Assembly (NCBI RefSeq): GCF_002864685.1
Contig: NZ_NMQZ01000001.1
Location: 62,001-126,000, forward strand
Source: Alloalcanivorax mobilis
Lineage (GTDB): Bacteria > Pseudomonadota > Gammaproteobacteria > Pseudomonadales > Alcanivoracaceae
Length of the DNA: 64,000 nucleotides
Direction: 5' to 3'
Shown piece by piece: positions 25,806-32,106 of the stretch; position 1 is the first letter of the stretch; each line of letters opens with the position of its first letter. Position numbers and translations under genes: made by a program. The notes beneath the pieces were generated by a model that made no database searches, was not told the DNA's origin, and worked only from the letters and a program-made list of their open reading frames with translations.

Positions 25806-26471
25806 ATGACCCTGAAAGCGGTGAGCCTCAGCGAACAGATCGCCGAGCACCTGGCGGAAGAGATCATTCTGGGGCGGCTGGCGCCCGGCGAACGGCTGCC
25901 GGAAACGGACCTGGCCAAGCAGCTTGATGTGAGCACTAACTCACTTCGAGAGGCCTTTCGTGTCTTGGAGAAGCGCCATTTGATCGATCTGCAGCCGCGG
26001 CGGGGCGCGCGCGTGTGCGAGGTCAACGAAGAGCAGGTCAACGACCTTTATGAGTTCCTGTTTCTGCTGCTCTCACACCTGGCGGCGGAGGCGGCCCGGC
26101 ACTGGCAGCCGGGGGAAATCGAGGATCTGGCGGCGATGCTACCGGAACTGACCCGCCACTATGAAAACAATGACATGCGTGGCGCCCACCGGCTGGCCTT
26201 CCGCTTCGTCGACATCGCCACCCACCGGTTTGCCCGCAACCACTATCTCGCCGCCGACATCACCGACCTGGTGCCTCTGCTCAAGCGCTTCTCGTACATC
26301 GCTCTACAAGAGGAAACCACCGAGTTCGATGTGTCCCTGAAAATCTTCCAACGGCTGCTGGAAAACGTGCTCAACCGCAACCCCGAGCAAGCCGCCGCCG
26401 ACATCCGCGAATACGGCGACAACCAGCGCCAGATCGTACTAAGGGCGATCGTCAAACGTGGCTCAGCCTGA
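25806..26471 (+). CDS. GntR family (FadR/FCD) transcriptional regulator
   Basis: A 221-residue regulator. The N-terminal winged helix-turn-helix (about residues 8-70) includes LAEEIILGRLAPGERL and DVSTNSLREAFRVLE. The C-terminal FCD-type all-helical ligand-binding domain covers about 90-215. AAGGAG precedes the ATG at a short distance. It is divergent from alkB over 132 bases, so it probably controls alkB. In A. borkumensis a GntR gene likewise precedes alkB2. The ligand and the direction of control are unknown. Downstream are a short tandem repeat and a terminator, so it is a single-gene unit. Confidence 0.9.
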   Translation: MTLKAVSLSEQIAEHLAEEIILGRLAPGERLPETDLAKQLDVSTNSLREAFRVLEKRHLIDLQPRRGARVCEVNEEQVNDLYEFLFLLLSHLAAEAARHWQPGEIEDLAAMLPELTRHYENNDMRGAHRLAFRFVDIATHRFARNHYLAADITDLVPLLKRFSYIALQEETTEFDVSLKIFQRLLENVLNRNPEQAAADIREYGDNQRQIVLRAIVKRGSA

Positions 26472-26535
26472 CGCTGGCACGCTGGCACGCTGGCACGCTG
26501 GCACGCTGGCACGCTGGCACGCTGGCACGCTGGCA
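26472..26535. repeat. Tandem repeat CGCTGGCA, 8 perfect copies
   Basis: Exactly eight copies of an 8-bp unit begin one base after the GntR stop codon and end just before a terminator. The unit is identical in every copy, which suggests recent slippage or expansion. Its position between stop codon and terminator means it would be transcribed. The reverse complement TGCCAGCG is also found once in the trkA-trkH gap. Confidence 0.95.
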
Positions 26536-26618: not shown

Positions 26619-27758
26619 TCAGCGCCCGAGAATATCCCGGGCAATGATTTCTTTCATGATCTCACTGGTGCCGCCGTAGATGCGCTGAATACGTGCGTCG
26701 ACGAAATCCCGGGAAATCGGATATTCCTTCATATAACCGTAGCCGCCGAACAGTTGCAGGCATTGATCCGCCACCTTGCCTTGCAGTTCGGTGGTGGTGA
26801 GTTTGGCGATGGACGCATTGGTGGTGCTCAGTTCGCCACGCTCGTACTGATCGATGGACTGGGCGCAGAATGCGCGGTTGACCTGTACCTGGGCGTGCAG
26901 TTCGGCGAGCACGAAGCGGGTGTTCTGGAACTTGCTGATCGACTGCCCGAACGCCTGCCGTTCCTGGGTGTACTGCACGGTGCGTTCGATCATTCCCTCG
27001 CAGGCCGCCACCGCGCCGAGCGCCAGAATCAGCCGCTCACGGGGCAGTTCGTTCATCAGATTGAAGAAGCCCTTGCCTTCGCCACCGAGAATCTGGTCCA
27101 CGCCCACTTTCACGTTTTCGAAGAACAGCTCCGAGGTGTCGGCGGCGTGGTGACCCATTTTTTCCAGATTGCGGCCGCGCGAGAAACCGGGCAGGGAAGC
27201 GTCCACGGTGAACAGGGTCACGCCCTTGGCGCCGGCGGTGGGGTCGGTCTTGGTGGCGAGCACGATCACGTCGCAGTGCTGGCCGTTGGTGATGAACGTC
27301 TTCTGGCCGTTGATCACGAAACCGTCGCCGTCTTTGTCGGCGCGGGTTTTCATGCCCTGCAGGTCGGAGCCGGCGCCCGGCTCGGTCATGCCCACGGCGC
27401 CCACCGCTTCGCCGCTGACCATTTTCGGCAGCCAGGTCTGTTTCTGCTCTTCGCTGCCCAAGTGCAGAATGTACGGCGCGACGATGTCCGAGTGCACCGA
27501 CATGTTCGAGGCAAGCGCGCCAAAGCCCAGGCGCGAGGCCTCTTCCACCATTACCGCGGAAAGGCGGAAATCGGCGCCGAAGCCGCCGTATTGTTCCGGC
27601 ACGTCGACACACAAAAAGCCATTCTCACCGAGCAGGTTCCACAATTCCCGGGGAAACTTCTCGTCCCGTTCCCATTGGTCGTAATGCGGGGCGACTTCTT
27701 TTTCCAGAAACTTGCGGACGTTGTCGCGGAACAGTTCGACCTCGTTGTGATCAAGCAT
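26619..27758 (-). CDS. Acyl-CoA dehydrogenase, long-chain-like
   Basis: A 379-residue FAD flavoprotein. Signature segments are GAVGMTEPGAGSDL (FAD/substrate motif), QKTFITNG, and the C-terminal QLFGGYGYMKEYPISRDFVD ending RIYGGTSEIMKEIIAR. In medium- and short-chain enzymes the catalytic Glu sits where this protein has Gly (YGGTS instead of YEGTS). This matches the long-chain type in which the base comes from another helix, probably the Glu in AACEGMIERT. It is the last gene of a three-gene minus operon behind the SDR and the kinase-like gene, and likely acts on acyl-CoA from lipid or alkane breakdown. Substrate length is not proven. Confidence 0.92.
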   Translation of the reverse strand: MLDHNEVELFRDNVRKFLEKEVAPHYDQWERDEKFPRELWNLLGENGFLCVDVPEQYGGFGADFRLSAVMVEEASRLGFGALASNMSVHSDIVAPYILHLGSEEQKQTWLPKMVSGEAVGAVGMTEPGAGSDLQGMKTRADKDGDGFVINGQKTFITNGQHCDVIVLATKTDPTAGAKGVTLFTVDASLPGFSRGRNLEKMGHHAADTSELFFENVKVGVDQILGGEGKGFFNLMNELPRERLILALGAVAACEGMIERTVQYTQERQAFGQSISKFQNTRFVLAELHAQVQVNRAFCAQSIDQYERGELSTTNASIAKLTTTELQGKVADQCLQLFGGYGYMKEYPISRDFVDARIQRIYGGTSEIMKEIIARDILGR

Positions 27759-27866: not shown

Positions 27867-28646
27867 TCACGCGTTTCTGGCCATCAGGCCGCCATCCACC
27901 GGAATCACCGCGCCGGTCAGGTAGGAGGCCGCCGGTAAACAGACGCTCAGGGTCATGTGGGCGATCTCCTCGGGTCGGCCATAACGGCGCAACGCGGTGC
28001 GCCGGCGGGCGAACAGCGCCTTGTCGGCGGGATCGATAAAGCCGGTCATTTCCGTGTCGATGGGGCCGGGGCACAGACAATTCACGGTGATCCCCAGTTT
28101 ACCCAGGTCCACCGCCAGAGCCCGGGTGAAGCCCGCCACCCCGGCCTTGGCGGCGGCATAGGCGCTGTTGCCGGGGGTCGCGCCGAGCGCCTCGGTGGAG
28201 GCGATGTTGACGATACGCGGGTGCGCGGCCTGACGCAGGTGGGGCAGCGCGGCGCGCACCATCGACTGCTGGGCGGTCAGCAACACGGCGATGGCGCTGT
28301 GCCAGACCCGCCCGTATTGATCGTCTTCCAGCGCCGCGAAACCGGTGACGCCGGCGTTGTTGATCAGAATGTCGAGGCCGCCGAAGTGGCTGGCCACGCC
28401 GTCGACCACGGCGCGCACCCGGTCGTCGTCGGTGACGTCCAATGCCCAGGCGCGCGCCTCATGGCCCTGTTCGCACAACGCCTCGGCCACCACCCGCGCG
28501 CGCGCCGTGTCCCGATCAGTGACCGCCACCCGGGCACCCTGTTCGGCGAACACCCTGGCGGTGGCGCGCCCCATGCCGCTGCCCGCACCGGTAATCAATA
28601 CCACCGCGCCGGCCACCGACCGGCTCAACGTTGTGTCTTCCGCCAT
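27867..28646 (-). CDS. SDR family oxidoreductase
   Basis: A 259-residue classical short-chain dehydrogenase. The NAD(P)-binding TGAGSGMG is near residue 19, NNAG near 92, and the catalytic Ser-Tyr-Lys in NIASTEALG ... SAYAAAKAG. The C-terminal GAVIPVDGG matches the family. It lies between a kinase-like gene and an acyl-CoA dehydrogenase on the same strand, so a hydroxyacyl/ketoacyl oxidoreduction on a CoA ester is a reasonable but unproven guess. Confidence 0.9.
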   Translation of the reverse strand: MAEDTTLSRSVAGAVVLITGAGSGMGRATARVFAEQGARVAVTDRDTARARVVAEALCEQGHEARAWALDVTDDDRVRAVVDGVASHFGGLDILINNAGVTGFAALEDDQYGRVWHSAIAVLLTAQQSMVRAALPHLRQAAHPRIVNIASTEALGATPGNSAYAAAKAGVAGFTRALAVDLGKLGITVNCLCPGPIDTEMTGFIDPADKALFARRRTALRRYGRPEEIAHMTLSVCLPAASYLTGAVIPVDGGLMARNA

Positions 28647-28695: not shown

Positions 28696-29733
28696 TCAAT
28701 CGATCCAGCTCAGTGCCCGCTCCAGCAATCTCACGGTGCTTCGGTGTAAGCGCTCACCTACTTCCCGGGGCGCCTGACCCGCGCAGGCGCGGGCGTAGGT
28801 GCCCTCCAGGATCAGGGCCAATTTGTAGCAGGCCAGCACCGCGTACCAATGAATCGACGAAACGTCGCGGTGCGAGTGCGCCTGATAGTGGCTGACCAGC
28901 TCCCCGGCATCGGGAAAGCCGTCCCACGGCGACACCGTCAGCCCTTCCACCACCGCTTCGCCGTGCTCCGGCCAGGTCGCCAGCAGCCAGCCCAGATCCA
29001 GCAGCGGATCGCCCACGGTGGTCAGCTCCCAGTCGACGATGGCGGCCAATTCGGCGCTGCGCGGTCGGTAGAGCACGTTGGAAAAATGGTAATCGCCATG
29101 CAGGATGCCCGGCTCGAATCGCGCGGGCAGGTGGTCTTGCAGCCAGCGGGCGATGCGTGCCACGCCGGGCAGGGCGCCGGCGCCGGGCCAGCCCTTGAAC
29201 GCCCGATAGCTCTCCAGTTGCCGTTGCCAGCGATCCACCTGGCGTTCCAGATAACCCTCCGGGCGGCCAAAGTCCTGCAAACCCACCGCCCGATAATCCA
29301 CCGCGCCCAGCGCGGCAATGCCCTCCACCAGGGCCAGCCCCATGCGACGGCGCATCGCCGGATCGTCGGCGTGCGGCGCCGGCAGGCCAGTGGTCGGGTT
29401 GAAGCCATCGATCGGTTGCATCAGGTAGAACGATACGCCGAGCACATCCTCGCCGGCGCAGGCGGCCAGCAACCCGGGATGGGGAACGTCGGTGTCGGCC
29501 AGCGCCGCCAGCATGGTCATTTCCCGGCGCATGGTGTCATTGGAGCCGGCCCGGGGATGAGCGGGCGGGCGGCGCAGCACGTACTCGCGATCACCACGGC
29601 GGAAGCGCACCAGAATGTTCTGCGTGCCACCGGCCAGCACGGCGGCCTCTTCAATGGCGCCCTCGCCCAGGCCCTGCTGGTCCATCCAGCGCGCCAGGCG
29701 GTCGAAATCGATCCGTGCCAGTCGATCATTCAT
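28696..29733 (-). CDS. Phosphotransferase of the APH/ACAD10-like kinase family
   Basis: A 345-residue protein kinase-fold phosphotransferase. The catalytic loop HGDYHFSN is at residues 212-219 (Asp 214 as base), and the metal-binding segment appears as IVDWELTTVGDPLLDLGWLL. This form, with DWE in place of DFG, is typical of the kinases related to the N-terminal domain of ACAD10/ACAD11 and to LvaA of the levulinate pathway. Such kinases phosphorylate the 4-hydroxyl of hydroxyacyl-CoA. It heads an operon with an SDR and an acyl-CoA dehydrogenase, the same classes of gene as in those pathways. The start is the ATG at 29733. Its promoter region carries a candidate TetR site. Confidence 0.85.
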   Translation of the reverse strand: MNDRLARIDFDRLARWMDQQGLGEGAIEEAAVLAGGTQNILVRFRRGDREYVLRRPPAHPRAGSNDTMRREMTMLAALADTDVPHPGLLAACAGEDVLGVSFYLMQPIDGFNPTTGLPAPHADDPAMRRRMGLALVEGIAALGAVDYRAVGLQDFGRPEGYLERQVDRWQRQLESYRAFKGWPGAGALPGVARIARWLQDHLPARFEPGILHGDYHFSNVLYRPRSAELAAIVDWELTTVGDPLLDLGWLLATWPEHGEAVVEGLTVSPWDGFPDAGELVSHYQAHSHRDVSSIHWYAVLACYKLALILEGTYARACAGQAPREVGERLHRSTVRLLERALSWID

Positions 29734-29770
29734 CGGCGGTTGCTCGCTATAGGTGCCGGGCCGGCCCTTT

Positions 29771-29786
29771 TAGGTCATTTGGATAA
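29771..29786 (+). promoter_or_regulatory. Candidate TetR operator, single site
   Basis: TAGGTCATTTGGATAA is found here, matching 15 of 16 bases of a motif in the inverted repeat at 30521-30549. It lies immediately downstream of a predicted minus-strand promoter and 39 bases before the tetR ATG, so binding could repress both divergent genes. Confidence 0.55.
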
Positions 29787-29794
29787 GCTGTATT

Positions 29795-29823
29795 TTTTTA
29801 CGTGTCGGTGGCATCGTTGTCAA
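29795..29823 (-). promoter_or_regulatory. Predicted promoter of the kinase-SDR-acyl-CoA dehydrogenase operon
   Basis: On the minus strand TTGACA (29818-29823, a perfect -35 box) is followed by a 17-base spacer and TAAAAA (29795-29800, four of six matches to -10). The predicted transcript start is near 29788, right beside the candidate operator at 29771-29786. Confidence 0.6.
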
Positions 29824-29824
29824 T

Positions 29825-30478
29825 ATGAACTCATCGCTTCCCCAACCCCGTCCCGGCGCCCGCGAGCAGATCAAGCGCGCCGCTCGCAACCTGTTCGCCG
29901 AACGCGGCATCGACGGCGTCACCGTGCGTGAAATCGTCGAAGCGTCCGGCCAGAAAAACCACGGCTCCCTGAGCTATTACTTCGGCACCAAAGAGGCGCT
30001 GGTGCGCGAACTGGTGGCCGATGGCGCCGGCCTGATCAATCTCCGCCGGCATGCCATGCTCGATCAACTGGAAGGGTCGCAGGCCGGTTTTGGCATCCGC
30101 GAAGTGGTGGAGGTGCTGGTCTATCCGTCGATCCACCTTACCGATGAGCAGGGCGAGGAAGACCACGGTTATGTGCGCTTTATCACCCTGCTCAGCATGA
30201 GCCACCGCCGGTTGTTCATGGAGGCCCTTGAAGAGGGCCTCAATTCCGGCTACCTGCGCTGCCTGGAGCACCTGCGCCGCTTGATGCCGGAGATCCCGGC
30301 CGCGGAGCGCAACCAGCGATTCATCTTTATCAATGTCTATCTCAACGGGGTGATTTCCGCCCGCGAAGCGGCTTTGGCCGAACACACCCGCGCCCAGCGG
30401 AGCTGGGCCTCCGAGTACACCACCCGCCACTTTATCCACACGCTCACCGCCATTCTCGAGGCGCCGCCCAGCCTGTAA
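29825..30478 (+). CDS. TetR/AcrR family regulator
   Basis: A 217-residue regulator. The N-terminal helix-turn-helix includes GAREQIKRAARNLFAERGID and TVREIVEASGQKNHGSLSYYF. The C-terminal ligand-binding domain is all-helical. It lies between the divergent kinase operon and the plus-strand SDR/phosphatase pair, with matching sequence motifs on both sides. A local repressor of this lipid-type pathway is therefore the simplest role; likely ligands are acyl-CoA or fatty acid derivatives, but this is inference. Confidence 0.9.
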   Translation: MNSSLPQPRPGAREQIKRAARNLFAERGIDGVTVREIVEASGQKNHGSLSYYFGTKEALVRELVADGAGLINLRRHAMLDQLEGSQAGFGIREVVEVLVYPSIHLTDEQGEEDHGYVRFITLLSMSHRRLFMEALEEGLNSGYLRCLEHLRRLMPEIPAAERNQRFIFINVYLNGVISAREAALAEHTRAQRSWASEYTTRHFIHTLTAILEAPPSL

Positions 30479-30520
30479 GAGGTCGGGTTGCGCGGCCGCG
30501 AAAAGCTGTGTAATGATCCT

Positions 30521-30549
30521 TAGGTCAATTATTTTATCCATATGACCTA
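30521..30549. promoter_or_regulatory. Candidate TetR operator, inverted repeat
   Basis: TAGGTCA (30521-30527) and TGACCTA (30543-30549) are inverted with 15 bases between. Read on the minus strand, the right half extends to TAGGTCATATGGATAA, nearly identical to the site at 29771. It lies 35 bases before the SDR start and just after a weak promoter-like pair (TTGCGC at 30488, AATGAT at 30512). Confidence 0.6.
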
Positions 30550-30584
30550 GGGCGGCACAGGCCGCTCCGCAGCGGAGAAAGGCG

Positions 30585-31403
30585 ATGTCGGACCCTTTGG
30601 ATTTCAGCGGCAAGACGGTGCTGGTGGTGGGCGGCTCCAGCGGCATCGGTAACGGCATCGCCCAGGCGTTTCGTGCGCGCGGCGCCCGGGTCCATGTGTG
30701 GGGCACCCGTGCCAGCGCGGCGCACTATCGGGCTCAGGCCGCGCCTCGCCAGGCCGGGTCTGGCCAGACCGGGTCTCGCCAGACCGGGTCTCGCCAGACC
30801 GGGTCTCGCCAGACCGGATCAGACCTGACAGGCCTGCATTACGATCAGGTGGACGTCAGCGATGCCGGCGCCATTGAGCGCTATGCCGCCCCCTTCGAGG
30901 CGCTGGACGTGCTGGTGCTCTCCCAGGGCGTGGTGCGTTATGGCCAGGCCGAGTTTGAAAGCGCGCCGTTTCGCGATGTGGTCGAGATCAACCTGAACAG
31001 CGTCATGACCTGCTGCATGCGCTTCTATCCACTTCTGAAAAGCACCGGTGGCAGCGTCATTACGGTCAGTTCCACCGCCGCGTTCCATTCCACTCGCGGC
31101 AATCCGGCTTACAATGCATCCAAAGCCGGCCTGGTTGGCCTTACCCGCACGCTGGGTGAAGCCTGGGCCCGTGACGGCGTGCGTGTTAACGGCATCGCGC
31201 CAGGCTTCGTGGCGACCAAACTCACCGAAGTGACCACCCGCGATCCGGAACGCACGGAGAAAGCGCTGCGGCGCATTCCGCTGCGCCGCATGGGCACGGT
31301 TGGCGAGATGGCGGGCGCCGCGCTCTTTCTCGCCTCGCCGCTGGCCAGTTACGTAATCGGTCAGACCCTGCCAGTGGACGGAGGCCTGGTTCTTGGCGGC
31401 TGA
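30585..31403 (+). CDS. SDR family oxidoreductase with internal repeat
   Basis: A 272-residue short-chain dehydrogenase. The cofactor motif GGSSGIGNG is near residue 16 and the active site VSSTAAFHSTRGNPAYNASK near 165, with PVDGGLVLGG at the C-terminus. Between the second and third beta strands (about residues 53-79) it carries a five-residue repeat (consensus GSRQT) that most SDRs lack, encoded by a 15-bp tandem repeat. The insert lies close to the cofactor pocket and could affect cofactor choice or simply be a tolerated loop. AAAGGCG sits upstream of the ATG. It is followed 28 bases later by a histidine phosphatase gene. Confidence 0.88.
   Translation: MSDPLDFSGKTVLVVGGSSGIGNGIAQAFRARGARVHVWGTRASAAHYRAQAAPRQAGSGQTGSRQTGSRQTGSRQTGSDLTGLHYDQVDVSDAGAIERYAAPFEALDVLVLSQGVVRYGQAEFESAPFRDVVEINLNSVMTCCMRFYPLLKSTGGSVITVSSTAAFHSTRGNPAYNASKAGLVGLTRTLGEAWARDGVRVNGIAPGFVATKLTEVTTRDPERTEKALRRIPLRRMGTVGEMAGAALFLASPLASYVIGQTLPVDGGLVLGG
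30741..30815 (+). repeat. In-frame 15-bp tandem repeat inside the SDR gene
   Basis: Five units of 15 bp: the first is degenerate, the second has one change, and the last three (30771-30815) are identical GGGTCTCGCCAGACC. Because the unit is five codons, copy-number change would not shift the frame but would lengthen a surface loop. Confidence 0.93.
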
Positions 31404-31431: not shown

Positions 31432-32106
31432 ATGGCCAAACTGTTTGTGGTACGACACGGGCAAGCCTCTTTTGGCGCCGAGGATTACGACGCCCTTTCC
31501 GATCTGGGGCGCCAGCAGGCACGCTGGCTGGGGGATTATTTCGCGGAACGGGGCATCCGCTTTCAACGCGCCATGAGCGGCAGCCTGAAACGGCAGCGCG
31601 ACACCGCCCGGGAGATTCTGTATCGCACCGAACTGGGCGAGCCGGAGCTGCAAACCGAGGCCGGCCTCAATGAATACGACGGCCATGCCCTGTATCGCGG
31701 TTTCACCGGCAACAGCGACATTGCCGCCCATCAGAAACGGGACGCGGTGGATTACTGGCGCACGTTCCGCGCGGCCTATCAGGGCTGGGTCACCGACGAA
31801 CTGCGCGGCGAGCACGAAAGCTGGGGGGAATTTGGTGAGCGTATCGAACAGGCCGTGGCGCGGCTGTGCGAAGGCGCCACACGGGAAGACAACCTGCTTC
31901 TGGTCACCTCCGGCGGCGTAATCGGCACCGCGATCAGCGGCATTCTGCGCACCGATCCGCTGTCCGCCATCGAGTTGAATTTTCAGTTCCGCAATACCGC
32001 GTTTTGCGAAATCGTCATCGCCGGCGAGCGGCGCCGCCTGATTACCTTTAATGCTTTGCCGCATCTGGATCGCCCGGACCGGAGGCAAGCGATTACCTCG
32101 GTCTGA
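31432..32106 (+). CDS. Histidine phosphatase family protein
   Basis: A 224-residue phosphoglycerate mutase-like enzyme. The phosphohistidine motif RHGQ is at residues 8-11, and typical later segments are RQRDTAREIL and VTSGGVIGTA. These enzymes hydrolyse phosphate esters through a phosphohistidine intermediate. It lies 28 bases after the SDR gene and likely shares its promoter. Placement in a cluster with a kinase-like gene raises the idea that it removes the phosphate from a phosphorylated intermediate or side product, which is speculative. Confidence 0.88.
   Translation: MAKLFVVRHGQASFGAEDYDALSDLGRQQARWLGDYFAERGIRFQRAMSGSLKRQRDTAREILYRTELGEPELQTEAGLNEYDGHALYRGFTGNSDIAAHQKRDAVDYWRTFRAAYQGWVTDELRGEHESWGEFGERIEQAVARLCEGATREDNLLLVTSGGVIGTAISGILRTDPLSAIELNFQFRNTAFCEIVIAGERRRLITFNALPHLDRPDRRQAITSV

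Follow-up and report, generated by a model that had tools for sequence, protein, structure and literature searches.

A conserved 16-bp motif flanking a tetR gene in Alloalcanivorax mobilis: probable operator of a small regulon for a kinase-plus-dehydrogenase pathway

Two copies of a 16-letter motif flank a tetR gene in the window, the 64,000-nucleotide stretch of the Alloalcanivorax mobilis genome that was analysed here, and it is very probable that the repressor which this gene encodes binds to that motif. The sites themselves, their conservation, their co-occurrence with tetR and the gene content around them can be read directly from the genomes; from these we infer, with considerable confidence, that a PsrA-like TetR repressor binds a 16-bp imperfect palindrome, represses its own gene and the promoters of neighbouring enzyme genes, and is released by an acyl-CoA of the pathway. 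The likely inducer would be an acyl-CoA that the kinase/dehydrogenase pathway either produces or uses up. A third site, before a fatty-acid-type enzyme gene elsewhere in the genome, makes a small regulon for this unusual kinase-plus-dehydrogenase pathway testable.

Table 1. Features of the window (positions counted from its first letter)
Feature	Position	Strand	Remarks
Operator S1, TAGGTCATTTGGATAA	29771..29786	+	between tetR and the kinase operon; counterparts in 57/64 loci
Operator S2, TAGGTCATATGGATAA	30534..30549	-	upstream of SDR gene SDR2
29-bp element TAGGTCA-N15-TGACCTA	30521..30549	.	contains S2 as its right part
Promoter-like TTGACA-N17-TAAAAA, kinase operon	29795..29823	-	from sequence; just upstream of S1
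tetR	29825..30478	+	217 aa; TetR_N and weak TetR_C_30 match; nearest solved fold PA3006, presumably PsrA
APH-type kinase	28696..29733	-	345 aa; similar to the ACAD11 kinase domain
SDR gene SDR1	27867..28646	-	259 aa; apparently second gene of the kinase operon
Acyl-CoA dehydrogenase	26619..27758	-	379 aa; without the ACAD11 phosphate-binding motif
SDR gene SDR2	30585..31403	+	272 aa; behind S2
Histidine-phosphatase-superfamily gene	31432..32106	+	224 aa; 28 bp after SDR2
GntR gene	25806-26471		in the window

The two 16-mers, S1 and S2, differ by a single base and lie in opposite orientation on either side of tetR (Table 1), at the coordinates and on the strands given in the initial annotation. 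When up to three mismatches are allowed, the 16-mer has two matches in the window; 100 shuffles gave a mean of 0.18, with two or more matches in 2 of the 100. The pattern TAGGTCATNTGGATAA occurs at exactly three sites in the 4.1-Mb genome (G000), for a chance expectation of about 0.008 (by arithmetic, with equal base frequencies). Chance or a recent duplication of the 16-mer could be argued from the two shuffles that reached two matches at that tolerance, but three exact genomic sites and conservation in 57 of 64 homologous loci make such an origin hardly credible.

The third genomic site, S3 (TAGGTCATCTGGATAA), is found on another contig (C47:26196-26211) and is followed, 44 bp on, by a gene for a 420-aa ACAD11-type acyl-CoA dehydrogenase; each of the three genome-wide sites stands upstream of pathway-type genes. 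A looser pattern, TNRNNCANNTGGATAA, recovers the same three sites and one more, TGATGCAACTGGATAA on contig C19, about 135 bp past an SDR match, which is probably a chance occurrence (the pattern read backwards, as a control, gives none). The initial annotation had proposed a local regulon on both sides of the regulator: homologous loci do keep the core of the motif upstream of tetR, but because S3 lies on another contig the regulon is not only local.

For comparison with relatives, one set of 57 genomes combined that of A. mobilis with those of 12 congeners and of other members of the order. Outside its own genome, tetR had its best match in this set at an E-value of 5.5e-20, and none of the 12 congeners carries a close homologue: across most of the protein the best of them reach 27-32% identity, exceeded only in short helix-turn-helix stretches, and hence there are no near-identical intergenic regions to compare. 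TetR paralogues of the genus (about 25-32% identity across the bulk of the protein) were considered as orthologues and rejected, the 12 congener loci compared (3.2-3.6 kb each) having no kinase, SDR or dehydrogenase match; a locus from another genus of the order (L018) does have a dehydrogenase match. Among 390 genomes of the order there is one further tetR homologue, at 54% (G240); the kinase gene divergent from it is at 68%. When 84,980 species were scanned with an alignment of two sequences, 168 relatives emerged, 80 of which were kept; the 64 loci analysed are 63 of these (L055-L117) together with the G240 locus (L054), while 17 (L118-L134; 28-40% identity) were left out. Loci were chosen by protein similarity only, not by the motif.

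Conservation of the motif where the tetR cluster is kept was an outcome on which the initial annotation had staked its reading, and the exact core CANNTGGATAA stands upstream of tetR in 57 of the 64 loci. Counting both strands, the core has 74 matches in 12,285 bp of tetR upstream DNA versus 4 in 835,563 bp elsewhere; read backwards, it has none upstream of tetR and one elsewhere. Flanking positions that played no part in the selection are likewise constrained, with T at -5 in 57/57, always A or T at -4, and always A or G at -3. The seven loci without the core are L116, which has one mismatch, and L067, L088, L101, L102, L106 and L115, all six placed apart from the main group in the tree, whose midpoint rooting serves for drawing only.

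Within the motif, the right half TGGATAA is nearly invariant and the left half varies by lineage (TTATCCA, TAATTCA, TAGGTCA, TAAATCA and others), largely following the tree. The loci nearest the window, four from Parvibaculaceae and two from Ectothiorhodospiraceae, share the left half TAGGTCA, which is also found in L081 and L087; the window TetR sits on a long branch, and where it falls relative to its closest rows is modestly supported (90/75). One clade of 17 rows, mostly sphingomonads, differs from all other loci among the 57: every row has the perfect palindrome TTATCCA-NN-TGGATAA, as expected of a TetR dimer site, and binding by a dimer is predicted. In the window, the dimer encoded by tetR would occupy the imperfect palindrome TAGGTCA-NN-TGGATAA, although TAGGTCA matches the other palindrome half poorly (3/7), which counts against the palindrome reading.

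The genes around tetR also recur. A kinase homologue lies on the strand opposite tetR in 50 of the 64 loci, an SDR2 homologue (at least 48%) is present in 45, and an ACAD11-type dehydrogenase (at least 60%) in 56; all three occur together in 40. SDR2 adjoins the kinase gene in many relatives, and SDR1 homologues are found near tetR in L059, L060, L064 and L065. The window is unlike its relatives in having SDR2 on the other side of tetR, with an operator of its own, and the ACAD11-type dehydrogenase on another contig.

Enzyme genes that occur apart from the regulator offer a control. In four congeners (G005-G008) genes for the kinase (63-64%), SDR2 and an ACAD11-type dehydrogenase are present, yet no tetR homologue exceeds about 31% across most of its length; the core is missing from the enzyme clusters of all four (a 14-kb stretch each), where the best match upstream of the kinase gene has three mismatches. 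The motif therefore tracks the regulator and not the enzymes, in a control that is small (n = 4, all one genus). Some other control must act on these congener kinase-SDR2-dehydrogenase genes (L171-L174), since they lack a close tetR homologue. The same comparison bears on whether another regulator of the pathway binds the motif, tetR being merely its neighbour: binding by TetR is a prediction, and a GntR gene does lie in the window, but the motif adjoins homologues of the window tetR at locus after locus and is lacking from enzyme clusters without a close one, so that we consider another regulator very unlikely.

How the proposed repressor would act depends on where the sites fall relative to promoters. 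The TTGACA-N17-TAAAAA promoter that the initial annotation assigned to the kinase operon is there as a pair of hexamers on the minus strand beside S1 (29823-29818 and 29800-29795), with a perfect -35 TTGACA and a -10 TAAAAA that agrees with TATAAT at 4/6 positions, and S1 lies 8 bp downstream; a stricter scan reported no promoter in 29600-30700, its rule demanding that the -10 end in T, whereas TAAAAA ends in A. S1 would cover the expected start of the kinase-operon transcript and occupies the stretch 39-54 bp ahead of the tetR start, which makes repression of both probable. S2 ends 35 bp ahead of the SDR2 ATG, in keeping with its earlier description as just before the SDR start, and no convincing promoter was seen there; its role would be repression of SDR2 and the phosphatase gene. 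At S3, TTGACT and TAAAGT stand 16 bp apart and the spacer between them holds most of the site, which would place the repressor within a promoter-like TTGACT-N16-TAAAGT before the ACAD11-type dehydrogenase gene.

These arrangements raise the question of whether the repeated element is itself promoter sequence, a conserved -10 or -35, instead of a repressor site. A possible kinase -10, CATTAT, overlaps TGGATAATG in 22 of the 57 core loci and is spaced 17 bp from a -35 resembling TTGNCA/TTGCAT; a CATTTA version occurs in 5 more, and TTGAC stands beside the core in most. However, the conservation of CANNTGGATAA goes beyond that of a promoter hexamer, a promoter would not explain why one clade has a perfect palindrome, and S1 is found downstream of the window's promoter-like hexamers, S3 in a spacer; we judge a promoter element to be very improbable. 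The possible kinase -10 in those 22 loci (within L062-L114) falls within the operator or at its margin, and where possible kinase promoters overlie the operator, tetR would have a very short leader.

Two tandem repeats were also observed in the window. One, within SDR2 (30745-30817), is an in-frame 15-bp repeat of 4.9 copies that encodes QTGSR and may be length-variable; the other (26471-26535) is a perfect 8-bp repeat, ACGCTGGC, of 8.1 copies starting from the end of the GntR gene.

The second 16-mer does form part of a TAGGTCA-N15-TGACCTA inverted repeat, as had been pointed out, but the exact repeat is present in only 4 of the 64 loci (L055-L058). What is conserved is the 16-mer, and its TGGATAA half most of all, rather than the exact N15 repeat, and we do not claim the latter as the recognised unit because a symmetric covariation test came out negative. 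The repeat may instead reflect two overlapping dimer sites, a suggestive and post hoc reading. Extended in this way, the repressor model would take the 29-bp element as the functional operator, made of two overlapping 16-bp sites offset by 13 bp and bound cooperatively by two dimers, with S2 nearest the full form and S1 and S3 as partial forms; we give this extension somewhat less than an even chance. The pattern TA...CR..TG.......CR..TG...TA is matched at offset 13 in 10 of 70 upstream regions, and at no other offset between 9 and 20 does it match any; four of the ten (L101, L102, L208, L209) lack TGGATAA. Among the core loci a TG occurs at offset 13 in 44/57 and at offset 14 in 11/57, usually as TTGAC, and reported precedents are FadR of Sulfolobus (two dimers) and DarR (overlapping palindromes). 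Yet the pattern was written after several sequences had been seen, S2 misses it by one base (T for the second C), and S1 lacks the second element; no covariation links the outer half-sites to the left half (36 unique pairs, P 0.98), and the downstream TTGAC may simply be the tetR -35 hexamer. At the position of the second element, S3 has TGGATAA, S2 has TGACCTA and S1 has neither. The divergent homologues at L101 and L102 carry a 29-bp element of the same layout.

The regulator itself is a recognisable TetR protein. It matches PF00440 (TetR_N) at 48.2 bits versus a cut-off of 24, a domain also matched in 37/37 homologues scanned; TetR_C_30 falls below cut-off in the window protein and matches 31/37 homologues at E up to 0.01. 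An AlphaFold2 model (mean pLDDT 89.5) shows an all-helical fold whose top structure matches are TetR-family regulators, the closest being PA3006 of Pseudomonas aeruginosa (PDB 2fbq; Foldseek E 2.8e-08, TM 0.76/0.78), which we take to be PsrA, and the next NicR2. PsrA, a TetR regulator linked to fatty-acid metabolism, is thus likened to the window protein by the closest solved fold and a weak NCBIfam match, but identity is only about 21%, and the score against the PsrA equivalog NF053516 is 41.2 bits, far below its cut-off of 300. The modelled fold and the gene content point to an acyl-CoA or fatty acid as the ligand.

On the enzyme side, the window kinase belongs to PF01636, its HGDYHFSN fits the HGDxxxxN catalytic motif, and it matches the ACAD11 kinase domain (8v3v) at E 3.2e-30, with better PDB matches in 9o56 and 3dxp; the S3 enzyme matches the dehydrogenase half of ACAD11 at E 1.6e-70, with a better match in 4hr3. 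PMC12440821 reports R626, H634 and R637 of ACAD11 as phosphate-binding residues and D753 as catalytic. The segments RLGGGRMHHAMR and LADGPTEVH of the S3 enzyme align with these four, all of which are conserved, once the chain numbering is shifted by one throughout; the chain in 8v3v has N at the D753 place, and HCMR reads HAMR in the S3 enzyme. The 379-aa dehydrogenase of the window has neither H.MR nor DGP.EVH and so lacks the ACAD11-type residues; its best PDB matches are 2pg0 and a long-chain acyl-CoA dehydrogenase. The genome-wide site and the ACAD11-type residues together mean that the motif led to the kind of enzyme that partners such kinases, and a regulon of three sites predicts the unlinked dehydrogenase that would partner the kinase. 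The pairing of the window kinase with the S3 dehydrogenase is a guess, because the genome has other kinase and acyl-CoA dehydrogenase genes free of the motif; the two enzymes would act on a 4-hydroxyacyl-CoA. Enzymes of the S3 type occur near tetR in L088, L101, L102 and L106 (63-72% identity), all four without the core. Contigs C37 and C45 of the same genome, among others, carry these further genes, there as APH-type kinase genes with acyl-CoA dehydrogenase genes and without the operator, and a locus on C37 (L157) has HCMR and no ADGPxEVH match.

Homologues of tetR also occur in nine plasmid records, all below 60%, of which five were compared (the other four being further Sulfitobacter pontiacus records). 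None of the five has an exact TNRNNCANNTGGATAA; a 29-bp element of the same layout is present on those of Sulfitobacter (L208, as TAATTCA-N15-TGAATTA) and Caulobacter (L209), and absent from the plasmid loci of Paraburkholderia, Tistrella and Sphingomonas (L210-L212). On the S. pontiacus plasmid L208, tetR lies between two APH-type kinase genes with an IS66 element nearby. In 24 genomes with a homologue, TWRNNCANNTGGATAA marks the tetR site in each and 13 other sites. Five of the 13 were looked at: three stand before catabolic genes, namely thiolase and HpcH/HpaI (L203), enoyl-CoA hydratase and acyl-CoA dehydrogenase (L205), and thiolase and luciferase-like genes (L206), and two look like chance, one lying between converging genes and one inside a reading frame (L204, L207). 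The backwards-read control gave 8 matches in the same genomes, and therefore many of the other eight sites may be chance. A bolder proposal, which we advance tentatively as having perhaps one chance in three, is that a new acyl-CoA-responsive TetR family, scattered unevenly among alpha-, beta- and gammaproteobacteria and in part apparently spread by horizontal transfer, governs bacterial ACAD10/11-like 4-hydroxy-acid catabolism through a 29-bp two-site operator with a 13-bp offset, the operator alone identifying the unlinked dehydrogenase.

The system is a TetR regulon, ordinary in kind; for a bacterial pathway of kinase plus dehydrogenase it supplies a concrete operator, a group of regulators and predicted targets, and inducer screening on the regulon would be a route to the physiological substrate. 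A survey of 33 regulator groups (PMC5343134) lists FadR, PsrA, FadP, LiuR and LiuQ for fatty-acid and branched-chain catabolism. Among titles and the beginnings of abstracts, with few subscription papers, we found no TetR regulator of a bacterial kinase/ACAD10-11-like cluster, and no regulator of such a pathway except LvaR, which is of a different type. Bradyrhizobium blr7984 was set aside on its description in PMC5017801, its neighbours being glutathione transferase, hypothetical and dehydrogenase genes.

Known systems resemble the proposed one in different respects. FadR of Sulfolobus acidocaldarius is reported to have four genomic sites, to be released by acyl-CoA and to bind as two dimers; FadR and DarR are TetR-family precedents for semi-palindromic or overlapping sites, likened here by binding mode and not by operator sequence, with a two-dimer mode suggested for the window operator. 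Mammalian ACAD10/ACAD11, the counterpart described in two papers from 2024 and 2025, resemble the window kinase in their kinase domain and the S3 enzyme in their dehydrogenase half, but are kinase-dehydrogenase fusions of 4-hydroxyacyl-CoA catabolism, whereas the genes here are separate and unlinked and the substrate is predicted. The lva operon of Pseudomonas putida shares with the window a divergent regulator beside genes for a kinase (LvaA) and an acyl-CoA dehydrogenase (LvaC); its regulator LvaR has a sigma54 interaction domain and activates the operon (PMC10164729), in contrast to the TetR-type repressor proposed in the window, so TetR would represent a different mode of control for similar enzymes.
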